From the NCBI GenBank assembly GCA_018401705.1, contig JAGYKL010000016.1:1-64000 (forward strand): a DNA stretch of 64,000 nucleotides, read 5' to 3'. The notes under the pieces were generated by a model. That model did no database searches. It was given only the letters and a program-made list of their open reading frames with translations, and was not told where the DNA came from. The DNA is from Bacteroidia bacterium. Lineage in GTDB: Bacteria; Bacteroidota; Bacteroidia; M30B66. Position numbers and translations under genes: made by a program. This document shows, in pieces, positions 56,681-57,140 of the stretch. Position 1 is the stretch's first letter, and each line of letters opens with the position of its first letter.

Positions 56681-56706
56681 TTTCCAATAACCTTATATAG
56701 AATAAA

Positions 56707-56742
56707 AAAATCCCTGCCGAACCATCACAAACGACAGGGATT
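56707..56742 (-). terminator. Terminator of the tRNA-like RNA
   Basis: On the minus strand AAATCCCTG...CAGGGATTTTTTT, an inner CG-rich loop and a T-run, 19 bases after the 3' end of the tRNA-like gene. Confidence 0.8.
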
Positions 56743-56760
56743 TAGGTATTAGGGAATTAG

Positions 56761-56912
56761 CTGTAGAGGAAGGATTCGAACCTTCACGAGGAGGTTAGCC
56801 AATATTCAAGAAAACTGCAAGCAGTTTGAGTGGTCAACCCGTTAAATATCGTTTATCCCAGATTCCTCACCCCCGAGACAAGAGGGCATGTCTGCCGTTT
56901 CAACACCCTACA
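56761..56912 (-). ncRNA. tRNA-like RNA with long insertion (no assignable anticodon)
   Basis: Ends form a 7-bp acceptor TGTAGGG / CTCTACA plus G73 (one G-U pair). The 3' part is a perfect T arm, GAAGG-TTCGAAT-CCTTC. The 5' part has TGTTGAAACGGCAGAC, like the D arm of tRNA-Leu. Between lie about 100 bases, not the usual 40. A stem CCCTC/GGGGG gives loop TTGTCTC (GUC, but pyrimidine at 37), alternative stem AGACA/TGTCT is equally good, then GTGAGGA/TCCTCGT and hairpin AACTGC-TT-GCAGTT. It could be an unusual type II tRNA, a tRNA with an insertion, or another tRNA-mimic RNA. Confidence 0.5.
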
Positions 56913-57140
56913 GTATATAAGAACTATTGATGCAAATAACGTCAAAACAAGCAATATGATGCAAATAAATCATTCAAAATGTTCAATTATTGACAATGTG
57001 ATAATTTTAATTTCGATTTATTGCATTTGGCGCAAATACTTACTATTGTATCTAACTAAAATTGCTATTTCTTGAATGAGTGCCAACACCTATGTTTCAA
57101 AAATAGGGCTTAAGCCTAGAGTTACATGCATTAAATAGTC

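Follow-up and report, generated by a model that had tools for sequence, protein, structure and literature searches.

A conserved tRNA-shaped RNA of Bacteroidota appears to join the identity set of aspartyl-tRNA synthetase to the GatCAB amidation signal

What is the role of an RNA that has the arms of a tRNA, a middle far too long for one and an anticodon that breaks the usual rules? The question is raised by a locus on contig JAGYKL010000016.1 of a Bacteroidia bacterium (assembly GCA_018401705.1), whose positions 1 to 64,000 are called here the window. The initial annotation had placed a tRNA-like RNA near its right end and proposed three readings: a tRNA with an insertion, a giant variable arm or a tRNA mimic. 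The RNA is indeed present, on the minus strand (56760..56913, from position -1 to C74), where it matches a covariance model of its family with 155.9 bits. It belongs to a tRNA-shaped RNA that is conserved in Bacteroidota and some of their phages. Judged from sequence, it looks like the identity set of aspartyl-tRNA synthetase (AspRS) joined to the U1-A72 amidation signal of the amidotransferase GatCAB, on a body ill-suited to decoding. We assign a probability of roughly 0.68 to the reading that this RNA does no decoding and is dedicated to carrying the amino acid in tRNA-dependent asparagine synthesis, after which asparagine would be released to the free pool.

On the minus strand, U1 lies at 56912, G73 at 56761 and C74 at 56760, with a C at position -1. 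The acceptor stem pairs UGUAGGG (56906..56912) with CUCUACA (56762..56768); U1, G2, C71 and A72 are invariant across the RNA family, as are the discriminator G73 and C74 (56760..56761). Nearly all ordinary tRNA genes of this genome likewise encode C74 without the full CCA. The acceptor stem (7 bp) and the T arm (GAAGG-UUCGAAU-CCUUC, 56769..56785; 5 bp, loop UUCGAAU) are perfectly paired, as had been noticed at the outset. The D arm (UUG AAACGGCAGA CAU, 56888..56903), whose first pair covaries between A-U and U-A among relatives, is a near-match to that of the same genome's tRNA-Leu(GAG); the proposed resemblance to tRNA-Leu ends there, the identity elements being those of tRNA-Asp plus U1-A72. 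The anticodon arm (CCCUC-UUGUCUC-GGGGG, 56870..56886) is an ordinary-looking hairpin with anticodon GUC (56879-56877) and C38 (56875), yet it carries a pyrimidine at position 37. The surplus bases of the over-long middle form a giant variable arm of about 81 nt (56788..56868). Its outer stem, GAGG/CCUC, covaries, and its interior holds a covarying 2-bp stem around a conserved RAYAAA/CUAA internal loop and an optional GGGUUGACCAC domain. We considered whether the anticodon loop (GUCUC) pairs with a GGGAY motif of the arm and rejected this on inspection, as it fails in GUCGC variants.

In the window, the RNA was not found by ARAGORN, and Rfam gave no match at the gathering threshold, nor any with E<=5 on the local stretch; it falls below the gathering threshold of the tRNA family RF00005, and neither program returned a transfer-messenger RNA (tmRNA) match. 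A tmRNA or a member of another Rfam family was therefore set aside, and the clean match to a known family that had been named as a possible refutation did not appear. Lack of conservation, the other refutation named beforehand, is strongly contradicted. In DNA searches, most genomes of the taxonomic family to which the window belongs gave matches of 83-86% identity across ~170 nt, and in many other families the RNA was recognisable as two conserved blocks flanking a variable middle. An alignment of 14 sequences, covering the cloverleaf (acceptor, D, anticodon and T stems) and one stem of the variable arm, has 99.4% of its helix cells paired; both partners have changed in 10 pairs, where slid controls give 0-2. 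The structure is thus supported by covariation and not by the fold energy of the window sequence alone, which is unremarkable (z -0.94). The 2-bp stem at the RAYAAA/CUAA loop occurs as GG/CC, GC/GC, AC/GU, GA/UC and CC/GG, both pairs being formed in 93% of 194 sequences compared to 60% after shuffling (maximum 65%).

A covariance model built from the 14 sequences and run on 395 genomes of the class separates strong matches (E<1e-17), mostly 109-197 nt long and frequently in tandem, from ordinary tRNAs of ~84 nt. About 70 of the 395 genomes carry the RNA, some in two to four tandem copies, and three further carriers belong to a second class of the same phylum. Carriers include Chitinophaga, Algoriphagus, Cyclobacterium, Flammeovirga, Fulvivirga, Dyadobacter, Saprospiraceae and Cryomorpha; the search pattern behind this list demanded GUC and C38, and the list was therefore kept out of the identity counts. 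A Bacteroidota -7 box (TAnnTTTG) lies at most 60 nt upstream of 109 of 262 copies, where shuffled sequences give 8.7. Searches of the open-access literature turned up no account of an RNA of this kind, which does not prove that it is undescribed.

The class-wide set supplied 87 distinct RNAs for counting identity elements, a sample somewhat biased by having been collected with a model trained on such RNAs. U1-A72, G2-C71 and G73 are each present in 87/87, while the other acceptor pairs vary. Among copies that have the loop, U35 and C36 are found in 86/86 and G34 in 81/86 (the exceptions are L190, L203, L205, L219 and L220), and C38 in 85 of the 87. Bacterial AspRS determinants are G73, G34, U35, C36 and C38; bacterial tRNA-Asp strictly conserves G1-C72, which prevents amidation, whereas U1-A72 leads to amidation by Asp-tRNA amidotransferase (PMC9976931). 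The window's genome conforms to this distribution: G1-C72 is found in its tRNA-Asp(GUC), U1-A72 in both its tRNA-Asn and its tRNA-Gln. The RNA thus has both the elements of an AspRS substrate (G34, U35, C36, C38, G73, G2-C71) and that of a GatCAB substrate. The anticodon, which had been called doubtful, is a conserved GUC; the doubt holds for its flanks, position 33 being U in 72 RNAs, G in 12 and C in 2, and position 37 being U in 70, G in 8, C in 8 and A in 1. A decoding-competent loop, with U33 and a purine at 37, is not what characterizes the family. In its build, the RNA looks like an Asp anticodon arm set on an acceptor that GatCAB would accept, with a Leu-like D arm added.

If the RNA is a substrate of GatCAB, its carriers should keep the enzyme. 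We compared 40 near-complete genomes with the RNA and 40 without it, chosen before gene content was examined, scoring gatCAB by gatB alone. AsnRS is present in 80/80 genomes. All 40 RNA-carrying genomes have gatB, against 23/40 of those without the RNA, and in the latter gatB follows GlnRS exactly (23/23 where GlnRS is absent, 0/17 where it is present), as expected if GatCAB serves glutamine only. Both AsnRS and GlnRS occur in 41 genomes, which can decode without GatCAB; in these gatB therefore tracks the RNA, with 24/24 carriers against 0/17 non-carriers (Fisher 7e-12, a value that overstates independence since the genomes are related); the contrast is repeated inside families f35 and f40. 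The E. coli-type asparagine synthetase AsnB shows the inverse pattern, with 0/40 carriers against 9/40 non-carriers. These nine score above 900 bits on an E. coli-type model, the remaining proteins reaching at most ~264. This model was used instead of TIGR01536, which does not discriminate because ~630-aa paralogues are common. AsnA was found in four genomes with the RNA and two without. Five carriers (G010, G164, G299, G322 and G330) have neither a recognised AsnA nor any TIGR01536 AsnB.

Each of 42 genomes examined has a single bacterial-type AspRS. In 30 aligned sequences, we inspected the anticodon-domain residues that we take to separate discriminating from non-discriminating enzymes: the His/Gly pair never occurs, and the residues are mostly of the E. 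coli type, with or without the RNA in the genome. AspRS therefore looks like the discriminating enzyme of E. coli in both groups, which makes the classical route through tRNA-Asn less likely. It would suggest that the carrier is something other than tRNA-Asn, which would leave the RNA as the evident aspartate-loaded substrate for GatCAB.

The pathway that we infer has four steps. AspRS would recognise G34-U35-C36, C38, G73 and G2-C71 and load aspartate on the CCA end; GatCAB would then recognise U1-A72 and amidate the aspartate to asparagine on the RNA. Both steps are suggested by the identity elements together with the co-occurrence. The asparagine would be kept out of Asp codons, as positions 33 and 37 and the bulky arm probably suit the ribosome badly, and would be freed by an enzyme or by hydrolysis into the free pool, from which AsnRS would charge ordinary tRNA-Asn. 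Finally AsnC, the divergent neighbour of the RNA in many lineages, would tune its transcription to the asparagine level. Genomic context is what points to the release step and to control by AsnC.

Several observations weigh against this pathway, besides the relatedness of the genomes and our assumption about the diagnostic AspRS residues. Most copies, the window's among them, have U33, so that exclusion from the ribosome has to come from position 37 and the arm. We know of no enzyme that releases asparagine from RNA. Four RNA-carrying genomes also have AsnA, and the ~630-aa AsnB-like proteins common in carriers may be a source of asparagine. Lastly, asnC is not adjacent to the RNA in the window's own family nor in several others.

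What else could such an RNA do? It might be charged and amidated as above and then serve, as Asn- or Asp-RNA, as a donor for a non-ribosomal transferase in peptide, lipid or cell-wall ligation, the long arm docking the transferase. The GatCAB link is compatible with this, and the size and conservation of the arm, with its unvarying internal-loop motif, hint at a protein or tertiary partner; but the recurring neighbour is asnC and no transferase, and the opposite distribution of asnA/asnB speaks for asparagine as a free amino acid. We consider a donor role unlikely. Slightly less probable still is a regulatory sensor that reports Asp/Asn charging, or titrates AspRS or GatCAB, with AsnC or other genes as its targets; GatCAB would make asparagine on tRNA-Asn loaded by a non-discriminating AspRS, the arrangement of Bdellovibrio (PMC4206432). 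Adjacency to asnC and the U1-A72 of the window genome's tRNA-Asn would suit such a sensor, whereas the discriminating look of AspRS in both groups of genomes does not, and two to four tandem copies and strict gatB dependence fit a substrate better.

We regard it as very improbable that the RNA is an unusual decoding tRNA for Asp codons, an intron-bearing tRNA or a decaying pseudogene. The cloverleaf, the GUC anticodon and U33 in most copies speak for such a reading, but an ordinary tRNA-Asp(GUC) is already in the genome and positions 33 and 37 vary freely. The long segment, which the initial annotation had allowed to be an insertion, is no intron: it covaries as an arm at the class II position. 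Assignment to tRNA-Leu or to an intron-bearing tRNA was rejected on G73, GUC and this covariation. Conservation across two classes and phages also counts against these readings. Of the three readings proposed initially, a giant variable arm and a tRNA mimic both proved apt, the arm being real and the RNA probably not being a normal decoding tRNA.

Returning to the proposed asparagine carrier, its neighbourhood is dominated by one gene. Clustering of open reading frames around 254 RNAs gave a single dominant partner, a regulator upstream and divergent at 81 loci, and tblastn found the same regulator at 103 loci, usually 120-220 nt upstream of the RNA and divergent. Among curated models AsnC fits it best, with 170 bits where the E. 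coli-based cut-off is 227, and the best-matching structure is that of E. coli AsnC (2cg4). The window's genome has its asnC homologue elsewhere, with no relic of the RNA found beside it. A link to the neighbouring dtd gene was discarded, as dtd is not a recurring neighbour in the clustering. Upstream of the RNA, the exact 12-mer TGATGCAAATAA is repeated 30 bp apart (56928-56939 and 56958-56969) and could be a candidate site for a regulator, perhaps AsnC; relatives have similar TTTGCAT sites upstream of the RNA. Downstream, where the RNA had been credited with a terminator, a terminator-like hairpin is plainly visible, its G+C stem leading into a run of T (AAAUCCCUG...CAGGGAUUU, 56702..56743, minus strand), although a simple terminator scan gives it no score, its loop exceeding the allowed length. 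The 12-nt loop of this hairpin (UUUGUGAUGGUU, 56720-56731, minus strand) is identical in all examined members of the window's family (L002-L007, L130), while the stem differs.

Seven viral contigs from IMG/VR (L171-L177) also carry the RNA, with identity elements intact and some copies near a terminase gene. Terminase, portal and head proteins surround it in L172 and L176, and PhoH-like and exonuclease genes in L174. In the 636-kb phage LR756504.1, a complete copy scoring 122.7 bits lies within a tRNA array (L310:3000-3144), again with the identity elements kept. These copies are a possible means of supplying asparagine. We give even odds to a wider proposal: that this is a widespread RNA with no function other than to serve as a reusable carrier ('RNA coenzyme') in the biosynthesis of a free amino acid, that it evolved by the combination of tRNA parts into a chimera, that the adjacent asnC controls it by feedback, and that phages, this jumbo phage included, bear it to supply asparagine during infection.

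Some copies depart from the family pattern. In family f49 (L220:5038-5115, L203 and L205; genomes G065, G191 and G369), G34 is changed to A or C, and the G065 copy (L220) also lacks the long arm. G065 and G191, the two tested for it, both have asnA; this is anecdotal and consistent with a relaxed need for the RNA. L007:1502-1649 has lost most of the anticodon loop and is apparently decaying. An extra hairpin-like insertion occupies the D-loop of L236:5024-5157, L197, L200 and L217. Two near-identical copies ~30 kb apart on one contig of G341 (L182, L183) differ by loss of the GGGUUGACCAC block, which suggests a recent duplication followed by divergence.

How does the RNA relate to known systems? 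It shares G34, U35, C36, C38, G73 and G2-C71 with bacterial tRNA-Asp, from which it differs by U1-A72 in place of G1-C72, the giant variable arm, a pyrimidine at 37 and an unfixed 33. With the same genome's tRNA-Gln and tRNA-Asn it has U1-A72 in common, and G2-C71 with tRNA-Gln, but not the anticodon or the variable arm. The class II tRNA-Leu provides a similar D-arm sequence and the position of the long arm; the RNA has G73 instead of A73, a non-Leu anticodon and a far longer arm with its own conserved loops. The cell-wall tRNA-Gly of Staphylococcus is a tRNA set aside from translation as an aminoacyl donor; both RNAs would act outside translation, while amino acid, arm and pathway differ. 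Also close is tRNA-dependent asparagine synthesis by AspRS and GatCAB on tRNA-Asn (Deinococcus, Thermus, Bdellovibrio, S. aureus), alike in AspRS-loaded aspartate, in U1-A72 read by GatCAB and in use where AsnA and AsnB are missing; here the substrate would be a separate RNA with an Asp anticodon, and AspRS has a discriminating-type signature.

Genera that have GatCAB despite AsnRS and GlnRS and that lack asparagine synthetases, Bacteroidetes among them, have been counted before and attributed to tRNA-Asn (PMC4206432). The asparagine carrier, if real, would explain why some Bacteroidota keep GatCAB under these conditions. It would clearly exemplify the withdrawal of a tRNA-derived RNA from translation for use in a biosynthetic pathway, and predictions of asparagine auxotrophy would change for Chitinophaga, Cyclobacteriaceae, Flammeovirga, Saprospiraceae and others.
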